Source of the DNA: a virus
Strand: one strand, 5' to 3'
IMG/VR virus record: IMGVR_UViG_3300032293_000181
Span: 1-30,121 of that record
Length of the DNA: 30,121 nt
Shown here: piece after piece, positions 124-30,121 of the stretch
How the letters are laid out: every line of letters begins with the position of its first letter
How positions within the stretch are numbered: position 1 is the stretch's first letter
Position numbers and translations under genes: made by a program
The notes under the pieces: generated by a model
What the model saw: only the letters and a program-made list of their open reading frames with translations
The model's database searches: none
Told to the model about the DNA's origin: nothing

Positions 124-867
124 GACTGGGTGGCCAGCATAACGATGGCACACGACTACACAGTCGGCTCGGTTGCCCCACTTGCCCCCTCCTTCAATAT
201 CCGCAATACCTACGGGCATAGGAAGGCCTGCGTATTCGTGCTTGTCGTGGTGGACTTTTCGCATCGCCTCGGTCACGGGGTGCGTGCTTACGATGGTGGT
301 GATTTGGTTCGAGTGGCTGAACACACGGAAGGCACTTGCCACCTCGTAGTGATATTCGTGCATTGATACCTTTCCAAGGCGGGTCTGATCGGTGCGCAGG
401 GAGTTATACGGGTCAACAAATGCACCCGTGTAGTCCCAGTCCGCCAATGCCTCTCCGTAAATATCAAGCAGCTCGAATGCTGAAAGGATCTTGTTCGGGT
501 TTATGAACTTGAAAAAGTCATCCAGGAAAGCCAGGTCGGAGTACATTCGCTGGGGATCAATCATGTTGATCGGCTTCCCGTTTAGGAACTCCACCAACTT
601 CCGCTGAATTGAATGCACCTCGTTCTCTGCCGTGTAGCAAAGCCACTTCTTGCCGTAGGTGATGGACTGCATGAGCATCAGGTAGAACATCGTGTGCGTC
701 TTGCCCACGTTGGCATGCCCCGTGGTAACGATGAACTCACCTGGCTTGAACCGAAGGAAGTCATCAATGGCATCGTTTCCGATGCGACCCATGTCGAAGT
801 ATTTACCCATTTGCGCTCGTTCGAGGTACGGAAGGGTGTCCGTAAGGGAGATAATATCTGAATGCAT
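1..867 (-). CDS. DnaB-type (SF4, RecA-fold) replicative helicase, first 289 codons; continues at 29998..29957
   Basis: ATP-driven DNA unwinding motor, probably for phage replication. The gene starts at ATG 867 and runs off base 1. Across the circular junction it ends at TGA 29957..29959, for 302 residues in total. It contains a Walker A motif GHANVGKT at residues 50-57, a CYTAENE motif, a Walker B strand AFVDPYNSL, a THP motif in IVSTHPVTEA (sensor-like H3) and a C-terminal WGNRADCVVV block. This is the order seen in SF4/DnaB C-terminal domains. The N-terminal DnaB primase-interaction domain is missing, so this is a RecA-core-only form, as in some small phages. The start is preceded by the leader AAAACCAATCA and a TATGTTTG box at 886..893, directly after a terminator. 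A recombinational ATPase is the main alternative. Confidence 0.85.
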   Translation of the reverse strand, partial: MHSDIISLTDTLPYLERAQMGKYFDMGRIGNDAIDDFLRFKPGEFIVTTGHANVGKTHTMFYLMLMQSITYGKKWLCYTAENEVHSIQRKLVEFLNGKPINMIDPQRMYSDLAFLDDFFKFINPNKILSAFELLDIYGEALADWDYTGAFVDPYNSLRTDQTRLGKVSMHEYHYEVASAFRVFSHSNQITTIVSTHPVTEAMRKVHHDKHEYAGLPMPVGIADIEGGGKWGNRADCVVVCHRYAGHPVDWRFTHIHVRKVKETETGGRITPYSEPIVLESMKGNVGFLH

Positions 868-868
868 T

Positions 869-879
869 TGATTGGTTTT
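869..879 (-). promoter_or_regulatory. Leader motif AAAACCAATCA before the helicase start
   Basis: On the minus strand AAAACCAATCA ends one base before ATG 867. The same motif precedes starts at 1675, 2032 and 27752, with variants before 1407 and 27139. An exact reverse complement sits at 947..957 on the other side of the terminator. Confidence 0.55.
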
Positions 880-885
880 ATTTTG

Positions 886-893
886 CAAACATA
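886..893 (-). promoter_or_regulatory. Putative -7 box TATGTTTG upstream of the helicase
   Basis: Perfect match to the Bacteroidetes -7 consensus TAnnTTTG, 18 nt before the helicase ATG and immediately after the terminator U-tract. No TTG is seen 19-21 bp upstream, where terminator hairpin sequence lies, so a host-type -33 element is missing. A phage-modified polymerase (for example with the sigma factor at 28758..29300) could be needed; that is inference. Confidence 0.45.
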
Positions 894-927
894 TTAAAAA
901 AAAAGAAGGTGGGGTGTTACCCCCACC
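893..927 (-). terminator. Rho-independent terminator between the OB-fold gene and the helicase
   Basis: In the minus-strand RNA a 7-bp GC-rich stem (GGUGGGG / CCCCACC, 927..921 with 914..908) with a 6-nt loop is followed by UUC and nine U residues. It lies 27 nt past the stop of the gene at 955..1407. It closes the early unit, and a new -7 box follows immediately. Confidence 0.8.
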
Positions 928-946
928 CTCCTACCTAGGTGCCACC

Positions 947-957
947 AAAACCAATCA
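947..957 (-). repeat. Distal arm of an 11-nt perfect inverted repeat (partner 869..879)
   Basis: The plus strand reads AAAACCAATCA here and TGATTGGTTTT at 869..879. In a readthrough minus-strand transcript the arms can pair around the terminator hairpin and bury the helicase leader. The arm overlaps the stop codon of the upstream gene. Confidence 0.6.
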
Positions 958-1407
958 GAAAGGCACCTCGGTTACACGCTCGGCCATGTGCTGCGCATGG
1001 CTTACTTCTTTTTTCTCGTTTGCCATCCAGTCATTGAAGATCTGGGCGGTAGCGAGAACTTTGTCTTGGCCGATTGGCTGGCCTTGACCAATGAATGCGT
1101 TGCAGTATTCGACTGCTGCTTTCAATGCTACCTGACGGATGATTGATGCGCTGCGAGCGGAATCGTCTGCGGGCTTGCGGTATGCGCTTGCGCCTCCTCC
1201 GTTGTAAGCAGGGCGATCAATTTTAATGGTTCCCTTCTCGTTGATCGTGAAGGCCAACTCGTCACCTGGCTGGTGTGGCTCGCTGGAGTTCTTTGAGAAG
1301 ATCGTACCATGCCGACCATCGTCAAAGGTCATTTGGTATTTGTAGAATGTTGCACCATCGCCTGATGTCCAGGTACCTGCGGGGGAGATTGATGTTACTT
1401 TTGCCAT
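955..1407 (-). CDS. Putative OB-fold single-stranded DNA-binding-like protein (150 aa)
   Basis: Residues 1-65 look like a small beta-barrel: alternating hydrophobic strands with aromatic residues (FYKYQMTFDDGRHGTIF), then a GDELAFTINEKGTIKI strand. A basic and serine-rich linker and a helical tail follow (SIIRQVALKAAVEYC, LATAQIFNDWM). From memory, Bacteroidetes phages often carry such OB-like proteins beside replication genes; the function here is inferred from that and from the position between RusA and the helicase. It lacks the acidic C-terminal tip of a typical SSB. ATG 1407 is preceded by AAAAAACCAGTC, a variant of the leader motif, and by a TAAATTTG box at 1431..1438. A strong terminator follows. 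Confidence 0.55.
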   Translation of the reverse strand: MAKVTSISPAGTWTSGDGATFYKYQMTFDDGRHGTIFSKNSSEPHQPGDELAFTINEKGTIKIDRPAYNGGGASAYRKPADDSARSASIIRQVALKAAVEYCNAFIGQGQPIGQDKVLATAQIFNDWMANEKKEVSHAQHMAERVTEVPF

Positions 1408-1430
1408 GACTGGTTTTTTAAGTTATTAAA

Positions 1431-1438
1431 CAAATTTA
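1431..1438 (-). promoter_or_regulatory. Putative -7 box TAAATTTG upstream of the OB-fold gene
   Basis: Matches TAnnTTTG exactly, 23 nt before ATG 1407, overlapping the stop of the upstream gene. No clear TTG lies at 19-21 bp, so the call is tentative. Confidence 0.35.
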
Positions 1439-1675
1439 CAATTTTATTTTGACTTGGGGAAATTTTCCATTTGAGATACGCTCCCAGTATTTGTGACCTT
1501 CTTTTGATTGTTCCCAGGTAAATGCTCCCAATACAAACAAACGCAATGTGTATTCTGCACGGCTGCAGAAAATGAATCTGGCTTGCTTGGCTCCGTGTTG
1601 CTTAATCACGTTGCGCATCCACTTGATCTGGATCTCCCTCGGTAGGGATTTTAGGCATTCGACTGCTGTTTTCAT
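1436..1675 (-). CDS. Conserved-type small phage protein of unknown function (79 aa)
   Basis: I do not recognise a catalytic family. The start MKTAVECLKSLP and a basic, aromatic middle (AEYTLRLFVLGAFTWEQSKEGHKYWE) suggest a compact helical protein. It begins like the two paralogues at 25825 and 26064 (MKTA / MKQTA), which may be chance. ATG 1675 is preceded directly by AAAAAAACCAATCAC, the leader motif, but no TAnnTTTG box is visible upstream. It sits between a coiled-coil protein and the OB-fold protein in the early unit. Confidence 0.7.
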   Translation of the reverse strand: MKTAVECLKSLPREIQIKWMRNVIKQHGAKQARFIFCSRAEYTLRLFVLGAFTWEQSKEGHKYWERISNGKFPQVKIKL

Positions 1676-1688
1676 GTGATTGGTTTTT

Positions 1689-1847
1689 TTAGCTGCGCAG
1701 CTCTTGGAGCAATGCGTTTTTTATGACTTCATTCTCGGCTTCCAGAAATTCAATCTTGGATGCCATTGCCTCCACTCGGTGCTGAAGGAACTCGATCAGC
1801 TCTTTTGCTGCATCGGGGGATAGGTTCATGCGGCTAGTGTATTCCAT
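1689..1847 (-). CDS. Small coiled-coil protein (52 aa)
   Basis: Unknown function. The start ATG 1847 shares a base with the upstream stop (TGATG), which decides the start: a longer frame reading back to 2090 overlaps the whole upstream gene and is poor coding sequence. The C-terminal half (residues 18-50) is a heptad-like helix with ELIEFLQHRVEAMASKIEFL. It is probably a small regulatory or accessory protein of the early unit. Confidence 0.6.
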   Translation of the reverse strand: MEYTSRMNLSPDAAKELIEFLQHRVEAMASKIEFLEAENEVIKNALLQELRS

Positions 1848-2032
1848 CAGTTGTTGGATGTTAAAGTGAATCCAAACTCTTCTGCGTAGTCGGTTGCTCC
1901 GATCTCGCCCCAGACCTCCATGGTCTTGATGGTTTCGTCCTCTAGGTAGACGATTGACAAAGTACCTCCGATGAACTCGGCTTCTACTTTTTTGGCATTG
2001 TATAATGCCTCGTTCGTGATTTTGATTTGCAT
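1847..2032 (-). CDS. Small acidic early protein of unknown function (61 aa)
   Basis: Not recognised. Short beta-strands and an acidic character (VEAEFIGGTLSIVYLEDE; TMEVWGEIGATDYAEEFG) suggest a small beta-rich protein. It is the first gene behind the best promoter of the early region (2061..2090) and has the leader AAAACCAATCA four bases before its ATG. It is therefore probably well expressed early. Confidence 0.65.
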   Translation of the reverse strand: MQIKITNEALYNAKKVEAEFIGGTLSIVYLEDETIKTMEVWGEIGATDYAEEFGFTLTSNN

Positions 2033-2035
2033 GTC

Positions 2036-2046
2036 TGATTGGTTTT
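2036..2046 (-). promoter_or_regulatory. Leader motif AAAACCAATCA before the gene at 1847..2032
   Basis: Copy of the leader element, 3 nt from ATG 2032 and inside the transcript expected from the promoter at 2061..2090. Confidence 0.5.
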
Positions 2047-2060
2047 GTTGTTAGACATGG

Positions 2061-2090
2061 CAAACATAAAACGACTTTTTGGATTGGCAA
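2061..2090 (-). promoter_or_regulatory. Bacteroidetes-type promoter TTG-N19-TATGTTTG
   Basis: On the minus strand TTG (2090..2088) lies 19 bp before TATGTTTG (2068..2061), matching the known -33/-7 arrangement of the primary sigma factor of Bacteroidetes. It sits in the 66-bp gap after the RusA-like gene, and transcription would start about 20 nt before ATG 2032. Confidence 0.65.
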
Positions 2091-2098
2091 TAACTTTT

Positions 2099-2488
2099 TT
2101 ACAATTTTTTTCCAATTATTTTCAGAACCCCAGTGTTTACGGGCAATTCCTTATCTCTGGAAATTGTCAATTTGGTAAAAAACTTGCTCGTATCATCCTT
2201 GCAACCGCCCCAATATCGGAAAGCATCAGCTCCAAACTTGATGGCCATGATGCAGTTGTCATTGTCGTATCGGTAGTTGTGGGTGAGATGGATCTCATAA
2301 TCTGCCAATACGACCTTTCTCTCCAATCCCAACTGGGCGAGTAGGTGGTGCTTAATAATATCGCCCTCCTTTTTTCGGATCGCCCAATGCCTACCCGAGT
2401 AGAATTTGTTTAGCGATGGGATCTTTCCCAGTATCAGCTCATAGGAATGAATCTCCGAAGTTGCCGTGCAGGTCGTAGTGATCTCCAT
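2099..2488 (-). CDS. RusA-like Holliday junction resolvase (129 aa)
   Basis: Expected to cut four-way DNA junctions formed during phage replication or recombination. The sequence has the RusA layout: an N-terminal PSLNKFYSGRHWAIRKK segment, the acidic site YDNDN at residues 74-78 (RusA family DxDN), a further Asp at 88 and KDD at 97-99 near the C-terminal third. Length fits the family (about 120-140). It lies in the early unit just downstream of a small unknown gene (8-nt gap). Catalysis is inferred from these acidic residues; overall similarity looks distant, so a related nuclease fold is possible. Confidence 0.7.
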   Translation of the reverse strand: MEITTTCTATSEIHSYELILGKIPSLNKFYSGRHWAIRKKEGDIIKHHLLAQLGLERKVVLADYEIHLTHNYRYDNDNCIMAIKFGADAFRYWGGCKDDTSKFFTKLTISRDKELPVNTGVLKIIGKKL

Positions 2489-2496
2489 TGTTACCG

Positions 2497-2685
2497 TTAG
2501 ACATTATTGCCCGCCAGCGTGATGCCTCCTTCTTTTCGGTATTTTCTTTCGTCTCTTGTGACGCTTTCTTGCTTGGGGTAGTCGCAGAACCCGAAGTGGT
2601 TGAGGAACGCATTGGTGTAGTCGTTTTTAGCACGGCCTTCTTCTACGGCCAGGTAGTATTTGCGTTTGCGGTTGTCTGTTGGCAT
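2497..2685 (-). CDS. Small basic early protein, unknown (62 aa)
   Basis: No family recognised. The N-terminus is very basic (MPTDNRKRKYYLAVEEGRAK), followed by YTNAFLNHFGF and more charged residues. It is the first gene after the noncoding region at 2686..2944. A copy of the leader motif lies about 40 nt upstream at 2727..2737 instead of next to the start, so either the leader is longer or that copy has another role. An overlapping frame at 2439..2633 was rejected as less gene-like. Confidence 0.55.
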   Translation of the reverse strand: MPTDNRKRKYYLAVEEGRAKNDYTNAFLNHFGFCDYPKQESVTRDERKYRKEGGITLAGNNV

Positions 2686-2944
2686 GTTGCAAAATTGTTC
2701 TAAAAAAAAATAAAAACAAATTTGCGTGATTGGTTTTTTTGTTTATTTTACCAAAGTAAGTAGTATATAACTAGTTAAGTAAGTTAAGTAATACTAGTTA
2801 AGTTATTTAGTTAGTTAGTTACTTAAGTACGTAAGTAAAATTAAAAATAAAATAAATCCTGCGATTTAAGCCACGTTCTACTAACCACCTATACCAACAT
2901 ACCACTTTTGGTATTAAATGCGTTACAACGCACCTAAATGCCCT
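2686..2944. other. Noncoding region with AGTT-rich direct repeats and two dyads
   Basis: About 259 bp with no credible gene, the largest noncoding gap in the genome. From high to low coordinates it holds a dyad TGCGTTGTAACGCA near 2919..2932, a dyad ATACCA-CTTT-TGGTAT at about 2899..2914, and an AT-rich block at about 2760..2840 built of TTAAGT/AGTT units. ACTAGTTAAGT occurs twice in that block (2770..2780 and 2793..2803). It lies between the last lysis gene and the first early gene. It could be a replication origin, an early control region or both; no DnaA box or full promoter is visible. Confidence 0.6.
2727..2737 (-). promoter_or_regulatory. Leader motif AAAACCAATCA in the early noncoding region
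   Basis: Exact 11-nt copy of the element found before the starts at 867, 1675, 2032 and 27752. Here no ATG follows directly; the next gene starts about 42 nt downstream. A near match to the -7 box (TTACTTTG) lies a few bases upstream. Confidence 0.45.
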
Positions 2945-25449: not shown

Positions 25450-25673
25450 CAATCAAAGTTCAAATTGTTATCCGTCATCAGCTCACGCAGGCGATCACGG
25501 CACGCATAGTACGCCTTGATCTCCTCCTCGTGCATACCATCGTGCGAGTATTTGGTATTGCTGCGCAGCCATTGATCCAATTCCCAAAGGACGGAGTGCA
25601 TTCGGTGGCCTTTTGTTGCCATGTCAAACTCTATTTGATCGTCTGGCAAGTTGTATTCTAGCGTTGCTTTCAC
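25449..25673 (-). CDS. Small acidic protein, unknown (74 aa), GTG start
   Basis: Contains LEYNLPDDQIEFDMATKGHR, a helical WELDQWLRSNTKY and a C-terminal helix ACRDRLRELMTDNN. I recall small phage proteins of this shape in Bacteroidetes phages but know no function. The GTG start overlaps the stop of the upstream membrane-protein gene. Confidence 0.65.
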   Translation of the reverse strand: MKATLEYNLPDDQIEFDMATKGHRMHSVLWELDQWLRSNTKYSHDGMHEEEIKAYYACRDRLRELMTDNNLNFD

Positions 25674-25828
25674 TTCCGTATGGCCTTAATAAATCCACGA
25701 ATAAATCCAATACCAAATCTAATTGGCACAGGAGAAAGTACCCAAAGCCAAGACCAATCAATAACTGAGGTCACTTTGAGTACGACAAACAATGCTGTCA
25801 ATAGGATTGCAAATAGATTATCCTTCAT
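25670..25828 (-). CDS. Small membrane protein, Fragile-X-F-like (52 aa)
   Basis: ATG 25828 overlaps the upstream stop (ATGA) and the stop overlaps the next GTG. Two membrane segments are visible: residues 5-22 (LFAILLTALFVVLKVTSV) and 25-43 (DWSWLWVLSPVPIRFGIG), then a basic tail. The VLK(V/L)T.VI.WSW.WVLSP pattern recalls proteins annotated as transmembrane Fragile-X-F. Its role is unknown. It is the only gene in a stretch otherwise without a listed frame. Confidence 0.7.
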   Translation of the reverse strand: MKDNLFAILLTALFVVLKVTSVIDWSWLWVLSPVPIRFGIGFIRGFIKAIRK

Positions 25829-25850
25829 TTCTCTTTGGTGTTAAAGGTTT
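25824..25850. repeat. 27-bp direct repeat at gene junction, copy 1
   Basis: Differs in one base from 26063..26089. Both copies cover the end of a gene (TFNTxEK) and the start ATG of the next. Confidence 0.75.
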
Positions 25851-26067
25851 CTTGATAATAATATTCCGCAGGACCAGGCCCACCCATTAAAGTACCTTCT
25901 ACTTGGCCGTCAATATGAGCTTCAATAATCTGCTCCTTCTCTTTCTCAATATAATCCCACTCTATTGTATCACGAACAAAATCTAAGGCGCTACGAAAAT
26001 TTACATCAACTGATATATCTCGTGCTTCAGTTACCTCTTTAAGTAGCAGTTGCATTGCTGTTTTCAT
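25825..26067 (-). CDS. Tandem paralogue 2, small acidic protein (80 aa)
   Basis: Unknown function. It shares the start MKTA, a central KEKEQ helix (EKEKEQIIEAHIDGQ) and the end YYQETFNTKEK with its neighbour at 26064..26312, so the two arose by duplication. The C-terminal region is glycine/proline-rich (TLMGGPGPAEYYY). It overlaps both neighbours at ATGA. Confidence 0.65.
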   Translation of the reverse strand: MKTAMQLLLKEVTEARDISVDVNFRSALDFVRDTIEWDYIEKEKEQIIEAHIDGQVEGTLMGGPGPAEYYYQETFNTKEK

Positions 26068-26364: not shown

Positions 26365-27139
26365 GTTGACCTACAATGGTGTAATTGTCCAGCTCGGGTT
26401 CCTCAACCCCCATAAAGAACTCCTTGTACAAGGCGATGGCCTCGTCCAGTTTCTCCTTGCCTGACTGCAAAAAGTCGGGGGAGATGGTGTAGATTCCGAT
26501 GTCCAACGAGCCCTTGTCAATGGCAATGAAAATAAACTTCTCAATCGGCACCCCAAAGAGGCGGGTGTAGATGTATGCCTGCATATCGTACCCGTACTTC
26601 TTGGCACTGTACGGGAAGGCACGCAGGTCGCTAGTGGTTTTCAAGTCGGCAATGAATCCAGGGGAGTATATGTCGGCTTTTGCTCGGAAAGGCAAGCCCT
26701 CAATATACCCGATCTCTGGCACCTCAAAGCTGCACCCCTGGATGTAACCCATCACCGCCTCGTTGCGAAGCAAAGCATCTGCAATACGCTGCGCCTCCTT
26801 CAATTCCTTGGCGGTGATTATTTTACCGCCTCGTGCTTTTGCCTCCTGCCACGCCTTCGTGTTCTTGCTTTGCACATCAATCACCTCATAGTCCCCCATG
26901 AGTTCGGGCTGCAACACCATCACGTGCGCAAGTTTACCCACAGTGAACGCATCGCTATCCTCCTGCCCGTATTTGGTAACGTAGTGGTAGGTCTTGGGGG
27001 ATTGCAATAGCAACTTGCATGCGCTGGACGATAAGGCGGAACGGCCTAGGTTGCCATAATAAAAATCGTCATCCATCATTTGATCCAGGAGCGTCTCACG
27101 ATCCCAGGTAGTGCCGTTAAGTAGTTTAATTACTTTCAT
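26360..27139 (-). CDS. PD-(D/E)XK exonuclease, RecE/exo VIII-like (259 aa)
   Basis: Probable recombination exonuclease. The fold is visible in order: KLAHVMVLQPE with His72, a conserved FRAKADIYSPGFIADLKTTSD core with Asp156, Asp165 and Lys167 (D...DxK active site), and the helix YGYDMQAYIYTRL with Gln187. This matches the PDDEXK phage family related to RecE (DUF3799-like). No partner annealing protein was recognised. Start MKVIKLLN follows ACACAAACCAA, a partial leader motif; it overlaps the upstream gene by 14 nt. Confidence 0.82.
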   Translation of the reverse strand: MKVIKLLNGTTWDRETLLDQMMDDDFYYGNLGRSALSSSACKLLLQSPKTYHYVTKYGQEDSDAFTVGKLAHVMVLQPELMGDYEVIDVQSKNTKAWQEAKARGGKIITAKELKEAQRIADALLRNEAVMGYIQGCSFEVPEIGYIEGLPFRAKADIYSPGFIADLKTTSDLRAFPYSAKKYGYDMQAYIYTRLFGVPIEKFIFIAIDKGSLDIGIYTISPDFLQSGKEKLDEAIALYKEFFMGVEEPELDNYTIVGQL

Positions 27140-27359
27140 TTGGTTTGTGTAAAATAGAGTTAATGTCGTTTACTAAAAAGAGCTTTCCTCTTTCGTCCTG
27201 CTCTACTTTTAACCCCACCTCCTCCAATAGCTCTAGGTATCTATACACGGAGCGGACGGTTATTTTCAGCGTCTTTGAGAGATAGTGATGCGATTTGCTT
27301 TCTCCAGATTGCAGCTCCTTAATAAGCTGGAACACCCGATAAATTCGATGCTGATTCAT
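27126..27359 (-). CDS. Winged helix-turn-helix protein (77 aa)
   Basis: Start ATG 27359 was chosen: the in-frame extension to 27488 overlaps the upstream gene and is unlike a protein. The sequence is one wHTH: HRIYRVFQLIKELQSG, HHYLSKTLKITVRSVYRYLELLEEVG as recognition helices, then a wing KVEQDERGKLFLV. It resembles HTH_11/WYL-regulator N-termini, without an effector domain. It may control early or late gene expression; the target is unknown. Confidence 0.72.
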   Translation of the reverse strand: MNQHRIYRVFQLIKELQSGESKSHHYLSKTLKITVRSVYRYLELLEEVGLKVEQDERGKLFLVNDINSILHKPNESN

Positions 27360-27633: not shown

Positions 27634-27752
27634 AGCACCTGGGCAATATAGGATGGAACGATGAAGATCGCCAGGAGGGCGGTGCTAACGATTAGGTACC
27701 ACGCCAACCATACGGTAACGTCTTGGAACCAGTTGATCAGTTTGTCTTTCAT
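27624..27752 (-). CDS. Small single-helix membrane protein (42 aa)
   Basis: Starts at ATG 27752 with leader AAAACCAATCA one base away and the best promoter of the genome upstream (27775..27805). N-terminal MKDKLINWFQD is amphipathic, followed by VTVWLAWYLIVSTALLAIFIVPSYIA, a membrane helix. Strong expression is implied. Role unknown; membrane remodelling or superinfection exclusion are possible but unsupported. Confidence 0.65.
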   Translation of the reverse strand: MKDKLINWFQDVTVWLAWYLIVSTALLAIFIVPSYIAQVLCK

Positions 27753-27753
27753 T

Positions 27754-27764
27754 TGATTGGTTTT
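27754..27764 (-). promoter_or_regulatory. Leader motif AAAACCAATCA before the gene at 27624..27752
   Basis: Exact 11-nt copy of the leader element, one base before ATG 27752. Confidence 0.5.
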
Positions 27765-27774
27765 TAATGATACC

Positions 27775-27805
27775 CAAAACTAAAAAGGATATTTCACATG
27801 GCCAA
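27775..27805 (-). promoter_or_regulatory. Bacteroidetes-type promoter TTG-N20-TAGTTTTG
   Basis: On the minus strand TTTG (27806..27803) is followed after 20 bp by TAGTTTTG (27782..27775), a full match to the -33/-7 consensus. Transcription would begin close to the leader motif of the gene at 27752. Confidence 0.65.
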
Positions 27806-28431: not shown

Positions 28432-28822
28432 AAGCTGAATGCAATGCGGTCAGTTCCTTCATCCACGATGCCCACAATTTAGGGGAGCAAGTGCAAGGCA
28501 CGACCATTTTGTGACGAAACGTACGGGCGTGAATCTTTGCAATCTCCTCCCGCTCCTGGGCGGTCAGCTTATGCTTGCCGATCACCGTCCCCAGAAACTC
28601 GTACTCGGCCTGCGTAAGGCATTCGGGTGACTTAAACGGGAACAATCTATTCAGCTTCTCCTTGCGTGCATCACAACCGCAGTCAATGCCCGTGGCTTCG
28701 CTGAACCAATCTACCGCTGCCTTGATTCCCGTTGCCGTGGTGATCGTTTCCACTACATCACCCACGCCTTTTGGCTTCCTTCCACGCTTGATAGGTGCCT
28801 TCGGTTCGTTCTCTGATTTCAT
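28403..28822 (-). CDS. Conserved-type phage protein with GxDCGCxxRKExLNxLFP motif (139 aa)
   Basis: Residues 1-20 are basic and proline-rich, then GDVVETITTATGIKAAVDWF and GIDCGCDARKEKLNRLFPF, a motif I recall from many Bacteroidetes phages without known function. The C-terminal part has CTCSPKLWASWMKEL, a short Cys-containing helix. The CxC pairs suggest metal binding. It overlaps the sigma-factor gene by 65 nt. Confidence 0.65.
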   Translation of the reverse strand: MKSENEPKAPIKRGRKPKGVGDVVETITTATGIKAAVDWFSEATGIDCGCDARKEKLNRLFPFKSPECLTQAEYEFLGTVIGKHKLTAQEREEIAKIHARTFRHKMVVPCTCSPKLWASWMKELTALHSAYGEQSEVVG

Positions 28823-29300
28823 TCTTTGTTTTTTTTAATGTTTGACGTATTGAATCCCTGCCGATACCCGTCCCCCTGGACAGTGCAGAGATTGTAAAGT
28901 TCGTGCTGATCTCTAATACCTGCGCATCGTACCACCGAATCGCCTTCATCTCATCACCAATGGCAGATACAAGCTCCTCCCAGGTGCGATCCTCCTCGTG
29001 GTTGTATTCGTCTGTTGATGCAGCAAGCCATTTGTCCAGCTCGTACATGTCACCAAACGAGATCTTTTGCACCTTTTTTTTGGTGGCCGATATTTTCAAA
29101 CACAAATTCACGCAAGCCCGATACACAAAAAAGAAATTTACCTTTCCTTCTTGTATAAAATGCGTCTTGCCTTCGCTTTCTAACACCAAAAGCCGCAGGA
29201 AAACTTCTTGCACAACGTCCTCTGCGAGTTCGTAGTCCACATATCCCTTGATGAAGTTAACTAACTTCCTGCGGTTCTGGCGGTAGAATAGTTCGATCAT
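28758..29300 (-). CDS. ECF-like sigma-70 family factor (180 aa)
   Basis: Could redirect host RNA polymerase to phage promoters. Region 2 is residues 12-40 (LVNFIKGYVDYELAEDVVQEVFLRLL), matching the core-binding and -10-reading helices. Region 4 is about 121-165, with an HTH ISALSRGTGIGRDSIRQTLKK. The linker (70-115) is acidic and unlike standard ECF factors. It lies next to a DnaA-like protein and helicase genes (ATGA overlap at 29297). Confidence 0.8.
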   Translation of the reverse strand: MIELFYRQNRRKLVNFIKGYVDYELAEDVVQEVFLRLLVLESEGKTHFIQEGKVNFFFVYRACVNLCLKISATKKKVQKISFGDMYELDKWLAASTDEYNHEEDRTWEELVSAIGDEMKAIRWYDAQVLEISTNFTISALSRGTGIGRDSIRQTLKKTKNEIRERTEGTYQAWKEAKRRG

Positions 29301-29976: not shown

Positions 29977-30121
29977 GATTCAGTAAGTTAGTTCCGTTAT
30001 GCAAAAAGCCCACGTTTCCCTTCATGGATTCCAAAACGATGGGTTCGGAGTACGGTGTGATGCGTCCGCCCGTTTCTGTCTCCTTGACCTTGCGCACGTG
30101 TATGTGCGTGAATCTCCAATC
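29957..30121 (-). CDS. DnaB-type helicase, 3' end (continuation of the gene at 867..1)
   Basis: Bases 30121..29999 repeat 123..1, and 29998..29957 add the last 13 residues (NGTNLLNHGHVPV) and a TGA. The end overlaps the start of the next gene (ATG 29976) by 20 nt in another frame, which supports translational coupling. Confidence 0.85.
   Translation of the reverse strand, partial: DWRFTHIHVRKVKETETGGRITPYSEPIVLESMKGNVGFLHNGTNLLNHGHVPV
29999..30121. repeat. Direct terminal repeat, copy 2 (circular closure)
   Basis: Exact copy of bases 1..123. Joining 29998 to 1 restores one helicase reading frame. Confidence 0.95.

Follow-up and report, generated by a model that had tools for sequence, protein, structure and literature searches.

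The DNA analysed here (the window) is the whole of IMG/VR virus record IMGVR_UViG_3300032293_000181, 30,121 nt in length, and because a 123-bp direct repeat is present at both record ends (1-123 = 29999-30121), it represents a complete terminally redundant (or circular) phage genome of ∼30.0 kb. All recognisable genes are on the minus strand. They include those for terminase, portal, tail and glycosyltransferase, and the early module contains a helicase gene, which spans the record ends, an SSB-like (ssb-like) gene, a RusA-like resolvase gene and an exonuclease gene. The hosts of this phage and its relatives are probably Bacteroidota. We describe here a short leader, AAAACCAATCA, that stands directly before several early start codons, and a hairpin at the 3' end of the ssb-like gene whose loop carries the reverse complement of this leader.

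Repeated leaders and an antisense copy at the ssb-like stop codon

Six exact copies of AAAACCAATCA were found in the window, with 0.03 expected on both strands, and this number was reached in 0/100 shuffles. Five copies lie on the coding strand (Table 1). An initial annotation of the window had placed exact leaders 1 to 3 nt before four ATGs, and the gaps were as claimed (1, 1, 3 and 1 nt for the ATGs at 867, 1675, 2032 and 27752, respectively); the further exact copy that it listed at 2727..2737 is also present, with no start codon close behind. It had also reported close variants before the genes starting at 1407 and 27139, and a variant does precede 1407 (AAAACCAGTCA), while only a 7-mer remains before 27139. 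The leaders are A/C-rich and unstructured. The sixth exact copy, at 947..957, was absent from that annotation, and lies on the plus strand, that is, in antisense orientation. The orphan copy at 2727..2737 is followed by a U-rich stretch, CGCAAATTTGTTTTTATTTTTTTTT, and is kept in two relatives (L008 and L011); it may act as a transcribed decoy (sponge), or the gene starting at 2685 may have a long leader that contains it.

In the transcript, the antisense copy is displayed in the loop of a hairpin, AGGUGCC-UUUC-UGAUUGGUUUU-GGU-GGCACCU, as a perfect reverse complement of the leader. The hairpin surrounds the stop codon at the mRNA 3' end, with a strong intrinsic terminator directly behind it, and the helicase leader is located ∼70 nt downstream. 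The 91-nt region 885-975 folds at -40.2 kcal/mol (z -5.3), and an Rfam scan of the window gave nothing at gathering level.

The gene that carries the hairpin appears to encode an SSB-like protein, judging from a tail ending in PF, from its gene context and from a structure model that resembles an OB-fold and matched known structures weakly. Every aligned relative of the protein ends in PF, the structure model contains a five-strand N-terminal domain, and the best PDB matches were OB-folds (RPA, POT1), at weak scores (E 0.02 or higher). Among family models, only PHROGs of unknown function were matched.

Table 1. Leaders, promoter boxes and ssb-like 3' end features in the window (aa, amino acids).
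Feature	Position	Strand	Remarks
Exact AAAACCAATCA	879..869, 1687..1677, 2046..2036, 2737..2727, 27764..27754	-	Coding strand
Leader, helicase gene	869..879	-	ATG at 867
Leader, ssb-like gene, AAAACCAGTCA	1407..1417	-	Overlaps ATG; pairs with loop via one G-U
Leader, 79-aa gene	1677..1687	-	ATG at 1675; within operon, without promoter box
Leader, 61-aa gene	2036..2046	-	ATG at 2032; 13-nt pairing, duplex -21.1 kcal/mol
Leader, 42-aa small gene	27754..27764	-	ATG at 27752; single membrane span by eye
Degenerate leader AAACCAA, exonuclease-like gene	27140..27146	-	ATG at 27139; close relatives carry full leader
Orphan exact copy	2727..2737	-	41 nt before ATG 2685; no start within 40 nt
-7-type box TATGTTTG, before helicase leader	886..893	-	18 nt before ATG
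Box TAAATTTG, before ssb-like gene	1431..1438	-	23 nt before ATG
Box TATGTTTG, before gene 2032	2061..2068	-	28 nt before ATG; TTG 19 nt upstream
Box TAGTTTTG, before gene 27752	27775..27782	-	22 nt before ATG; TTG 20 nt upstream
ssb-like gene, 150 aa	955..1407	-	OB-fold-like N-terminal half, tail ending EVPF; 3' end carries hairpin
Anti-leader TGATTGGTTTT (transcript sense), hairpin loop	947..957	-	Opens with the ssb-like TGA stop codon
Hairpin AGGTGCC-TTTC-TGATTGGTTTT-GGT-GGCACCT	937..968	-	ssb-like open reading frame 3' end and 3' untranslated region; fold, compensatory stem changes
Intrinsic terminator GGAGGGTGGGGG..CCCCACCTTC and poly-T	903..932	-	Directly 3' of hairpin; folds as second hairpin

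Loop and leaders change together in related phages

To collect relatives, the SSB-like protein and the exonuclease served as queries in scans of viral contigs, from which 253 loci with an ssb-like gene were obtained, 145 of them non-redundant. The same gene ending was present in 137 of the 145 non-redundant loci, carrying three different loops (UGAUUGGUUU, UAGUGUGUGUG and UAGGUGUUUC) that define classes A, B and C. The class B loop, UAGUGUGUGUGUUUUUUA, is held within the stem GCAGUCC/GGACUGC, and the class C loop, UUUUAGGUGUUUC, within the stem CCAGUC/GACUGG. An anti-copy was located at the ssb-like stop in 109/109 class A, 12/12 class B and 16/16 class C loci; the classes were assigned by this same stretch, so these counts are not independent, and the actual test is provided by the leaders. 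A poly-T stretch was found no more than 95 nt from the ssb-like stop in 128 of the 137 class A-C loci.

Leaders were counted as motif copies located at most 16 nt before the start of an open reading frame (ORF) in the non-redundant loci. AACCAATC was found 317 times in class A and not at all in classes B and C, AACACACA 24 times in class B and not at all in A and C, and AACACCTAA 16 times, all in class C. Control motifs, reversed or rearranged, gave 16, 3 and 0 copies in the respective classes. The leader of each class is the reverse complement of its own loop, the class B and class C leaders being AAACACACA(CACA) and AACACCUAAAA. The 24 nt at the ssb-like stop were complementary, over at least 9 nt, to at least two leaders in 108/109 class A, 10/12 class B and 12/16 class C loci. 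When the ends of other ORFs on the same contigs were used as decoys, complementarity to at least two leaders was seen in 13/3068 (A), 1/473 (B) and 3/531 (C) cases, and on the basis of these decoys and of the control motifs, a chance antisense copy was rejected. Duplexes between loop and leader of the same class ranged from -13.5 to -21.1 kcal/mol, with the exception of the degenerate leader at 27139 (-8.5), and every duplex with a leader of another class was weaker (-4 to -11 kcal/mol for most). Pairing often reached beyond the core, up to 15 nt. The leaders are sense-oriented, with a median core-to-start distance of 4 nt in classes A and B and 10 nt in class C, and they precede ∼30 protein families.

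The stem of the hairpin varies around a constant loop. In the A7 stem alignment, 97% of the cells were paired and changes on both sides were present in 4 of 8 pairs, giving a covariation score of 0.507, compared with 0.254 for shuffled alignments (0/500) and no more than 0.188 in slid controls; smaller support came from the A5 and A6 alignments, with three and one both-side-changed pairs. In phages whose exonuclease is 75% identical, the layout is unchanged and the stem is wholly different (GAGUCACC...GGUGACUC), and more distant relatives with the same loop have the stems CGCAACG(A..)GUCCG...CGGACGUUGCG or CGUAACGACC...GGCCGUUACG. What the sequences themselves show is the hairpin with its terminator, complementarity between loop and leaders, their joint variation, and the rules of strand, position and distance.

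Class D comprises the eight non-redundant loci without the hairpin, and in these no copy of AACCAATC, AACACACA or AACACCTAA precedes a start. In this clade (L013, L014 and L173-L181), the ssb-like gene is followed directly by the next gene, and hairpin, terminator and repeated leader are all missing, which makes it a natural no-RNA comparison group. On a tree of the SSB-like protein, in which many forks are weak, classes B and C have class A on either side, and four class changes are needed in all, suggesting that the specificity of the loop has probably switched more than once.

Other matches that came up were rejected. Class A leaders matched loop B over at least 8 nt in 23 cases, in which A-runs faced U-runs and the cores were not involved. 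A locus found through the pattern of anti-leader and leader (L016) belongs to a 51-kb contig with one chance pair and no hairpin regulon, and the extra antisense GATTGGTT copies in class A fell mainly at one conserved coding position ∼2.2-2.9 kb downstream.

The initial annotation had suggested that the leader may be a phage-specific element of an early regulon, and the analysis supports a phage-specific element that marks a set of early or replication genes. Absence of the leader before homologous genes in relatives would have spoken against that proposal; it is kept in more than 100 loci, and also stands before non-homologous genes. Its placement within transcripts is supported by position. 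No description of the element was found, the 11-mer returning in a full-text search only sequence strings that were unrelated, as judged by titles.

Proposed target genes and promoter boxes

In class A, the leader is found most often before the ssb-like gene (98 cases), a ∼48-aa gene just upstream of it, the helicase on its downstream side, the exonuclease and several small early genes; in close relatives of the window phage, the leader precedes five or six early ATGs, including those of genes absent from the window. Class B targets include the helicase and the 42-aa small gene, and in class C the targets are genes of 53 aa, upstream of ssb, and of ∼60 aa, ∼4 kb downstream. In neither class B nor class C was a leader seen on ssb; the targets there are other early genes. 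Two class B phages have GIY-YIG-like genes (recognised by sequence reading) inserted precisely in the gap that separates the helicase from the ssb-like hairpin (L043, ∼4560; L123, ∼6550). Each of these inserted genes bears its own class B leader, and the leader therefore goes with gene position rather than with one gene family.

The TAnnTTTG boxes that the initial annotation had noted at four leaders are real, at the distances given in Table 1, and so are the TTG elements at two of them (genes 2032 and 27752). Across the window, TAnnTTTG was not enriched (15 copies, 17.4 expected), and we take it to be the ordinary -7 element of Bacteroidota promoters. Among relatives, a TAnnTTTG was present no more than 50 nt upstream at 166 of 353 leader-bearing starts (47%), compared with 168 of 2728 other starts (6%). 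Since about half of the leader targets are without a box, including operon-internal genes, the leader goes with the RNA and its start codon, not with the promoter. The boxes and the A-rich leaders of the window agree with the Bacteroidota promoter (-33 TTTG/-7 TAnnTTTG) and with a Kozak-like A-rich initiation region, but these signals leave the conserved CCAATC core and the class switching unexplained.

A second repeated start context, CCTTTAACACCAACGAGAAATG (variant ACCAAAGAGAAATG), stands before several small genes after the exonuclease (25825..26067 and 25670..25828 in the window, minus strand); in L035, AACGAGAAATG of this context is present in about six copies. No antisense partner was found for the second context (ACCAACGAGAAATG). 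Also among the early genes is a sigma-factor-like gene (28758..29300, minus strand; phrog_1740, E 8e-9), a possible phage transcription switch that could act jointly with an antisense RNA. Between the late and early genes, upstream of the early module, short repeats of the GTTAGTTAGTTA/TTAAGTAAGT type form a run at 2760..2880, which is possibly an origin or control region.

Proposed mechanism and alternatives

We consider it likely that an antisense RNA derived from the ssb-like 3' end has the leaders as its target sites and would thereby repress a set of early genes. The ssb-like transcript would end in a stem-loop whose 16-22-nt loop displays the reverse complement of the leader, followed by the intrinsic terminator, and the active RNA would be either part of the ssb-like mRNA or a processed small RNA of ∼80 nt. 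Pairing of the loop, over ∼8-15 bp, would involve the leader of ssb itself and those of several small early genes, the helicase and the exonuclease. The resulting duplex, spanning the last ∼12 nt before the AUG, would most likely block 30S initiation. Bacteroidota translation does not use Shine-Dalgarno pairing. In Flavobacterium, unpaired A-rich sequence favours such initiation, and structure near the start reduces it (PMC6847099); for this reason, an 11-bp duplex ending at the AUG should repress. As ssb-like transcripts accumulate, the early genes would be turned down jointly, and such negative feedback would set the size and timing of the early phase. Since in class A this RNA derives from one of the targeted early genes, the circuit would feed back on its own source there and extend to the other replication genes. 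With the stop codon placed in the loop, translation of ssb would govern when the loop is exposed. Production of the RNA, its pairing in the cell, its action in trans and the repression itself are what we infer from these sequence patterns.

Several points weigh against this interpretation. The class B and C counts rest on 12 and 16 loci only, class C has few targets per contig, and a search of cultured phages gave neither an ssb-like relative nor a DNA match; GTDB genomes gave a single weak match. Repression, as opposed to activation or stabilisation, is deduced from position. No promoter box was found in the last 300 nt of the ssb-like gene in 122 of the 137 class A-C loci, so that release of a separate RNA would need processing. 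Finally, a stop codon borne in the loop would be covered by the terminating ribosome.

It is unlikely, in our view, that the pairing is real and acts by a positive or other route, such as protection of the mRNA 5' end, recruitment of RNase III, or an effect confined in cis to the next gene on a read-through RNA. Many leaders do lie near the likely mRNA 5' end, and in classes A and B the helicase leader comes directly after the hairpin, as such routes would allow. However, class C helicase genes have no leader while distant genes carry one, so that a cis-only effect on the next gene cannot be the general role, and the lowering of translation by start-region structure in Flavobacterium (PMC6847099) favours repression. 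We regard as very unlikely the idea that the leader is an operator or RNA motif for a phage regulatory protein, with the copy after ssb being merely a site in the opposite orientation. Repressors often run phage early regulons, many leaders are close behind promoter boxes, and a double-stranded site can be read in either orientation, yet without exception the antisense copy occupies the loop of a hairpin whose stem co-varies and sits at the ssb-like stop, and the leaders are in sense orientation before starts. Where a repressor operator would be orientation-independent and tied to promoters, the orientation here is strict and the site follows start codons, about half of the sites being without a box. 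A protein would, moreover, have had to change its specificity more than once alongside every site.

That the leader is simply a favourable initiation sequence, copied before genes that lack Shine-Dalgarno pairing and matched by a coincidental antisense copy, seems hardly credible. The A/C-rich, unstructured character of the leaders is as expected for Bacteroidota initiation regions, and the same genomes contain another repeated initiation sequence with no antisense partner, but coincidence is opposed by the co-variation of loop and leader in three classes and by the frequency of complementarity, 108/109 against 13/3068 decoys in class A. We rejected both a stand-alone translation signal and a complement of rRNA, since each loop class comes with a different leader sequence. 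The initial annotation had suggested a translation or transcription element; that the leader acts in this way by itself was not supported, and it is instead one half of a base-pairing pair, changing together with the other half, the loop in the ssb-like 3' untranslated region (3'UTR).

We raise, as a speculation that is rather doubtful, the idea that loop-leader pairs are RNA immunity (incompatibility) groups: a phage would silence early genes in a co-infecting phage of its own class and spare those of another class, and this would drive the concerted switching of loop and leaders. Different classes are indeed present in the same metagenome samples; for example, 3300034104 contains class A (L012) and class B (L112), and 3300042373 contains class B (L109) and class C (L137).

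Relation to known RNA regulators

To our knowledge, few small-RNA mechanisms are known in Bacteroidota. The C4 RNA of phages P1 and P7 is encoded on the same strand as its target and blocks translation through short complementary stretches. Like the proposed RNA, C4 is a phage-encoded antisense RNA (Citron and Schuster, 1990, as cited in PMC8198154). C4 controls one anti-repressor operon in lysogeny, whereas the hairpin described here has many early genes as its targets, and the Rfam covariance model for C4 had no gathering-level match in the window and was absent among the weak matches.

The closest parallels in arrangement are OppZ and CarZ of Vibrio cholerae, small RNAs cut from mRNA 3' ends that pair with start regions of their own operon (PMC7398697; PMC9438474). 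As in that system, the phage hairpin lies between a stop codon and a terminator and is complementary to start regions of the same unit, and negative feedback is proposed (PMC7398697). Unlike OppZ and CarZ, it is borne by phages of probable Bacteroidota hosts, one loop faces up to about six separate target leaders, the loop is built around the stop codon, and there are at least three specificities with concerted switching of targets. The use of a loop sequence to set specificity toward a translation start is shared with the plasmid system FinP/traJ (PMC5415839). The plasmid RNAs FinP, RNAI and CopA are transcribed opposite their target, whereas the hairpin and all leaders are on the minus strand of the window in separate places, and are likewise on the same strand in relatives, in contrast to the opposite-strand arrangement of the OOP, RNAI and CopA type. 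Phage RNA regulators also include lambda OOP, aQ and PreS, VpdS and 24B_1 (reviewed in PMC12197685); these are mostly from temperate phages of Proteobacteria, and none in the passages of that review consulted here has a repeated-leader regulon or a 3'UTR loop of this kind.

The arrangement offers a search rule for other phages, in which a repeated leader is sought first and then its complement in a 3'UTR loop, and the loop-leader pairs would be simple orthogonal RNA parts for gene control in hosts that do not use Shine-Dalgarno pairing. If the interpretation is true, these phages, probably of Bacteroidota, have a post-transcriptional regulon of early genes, in which many unlinked genes are apparently under the control of one short loop, whose specificity has changed along with that of all its targets, a natural experiment in RNA co-evolution.

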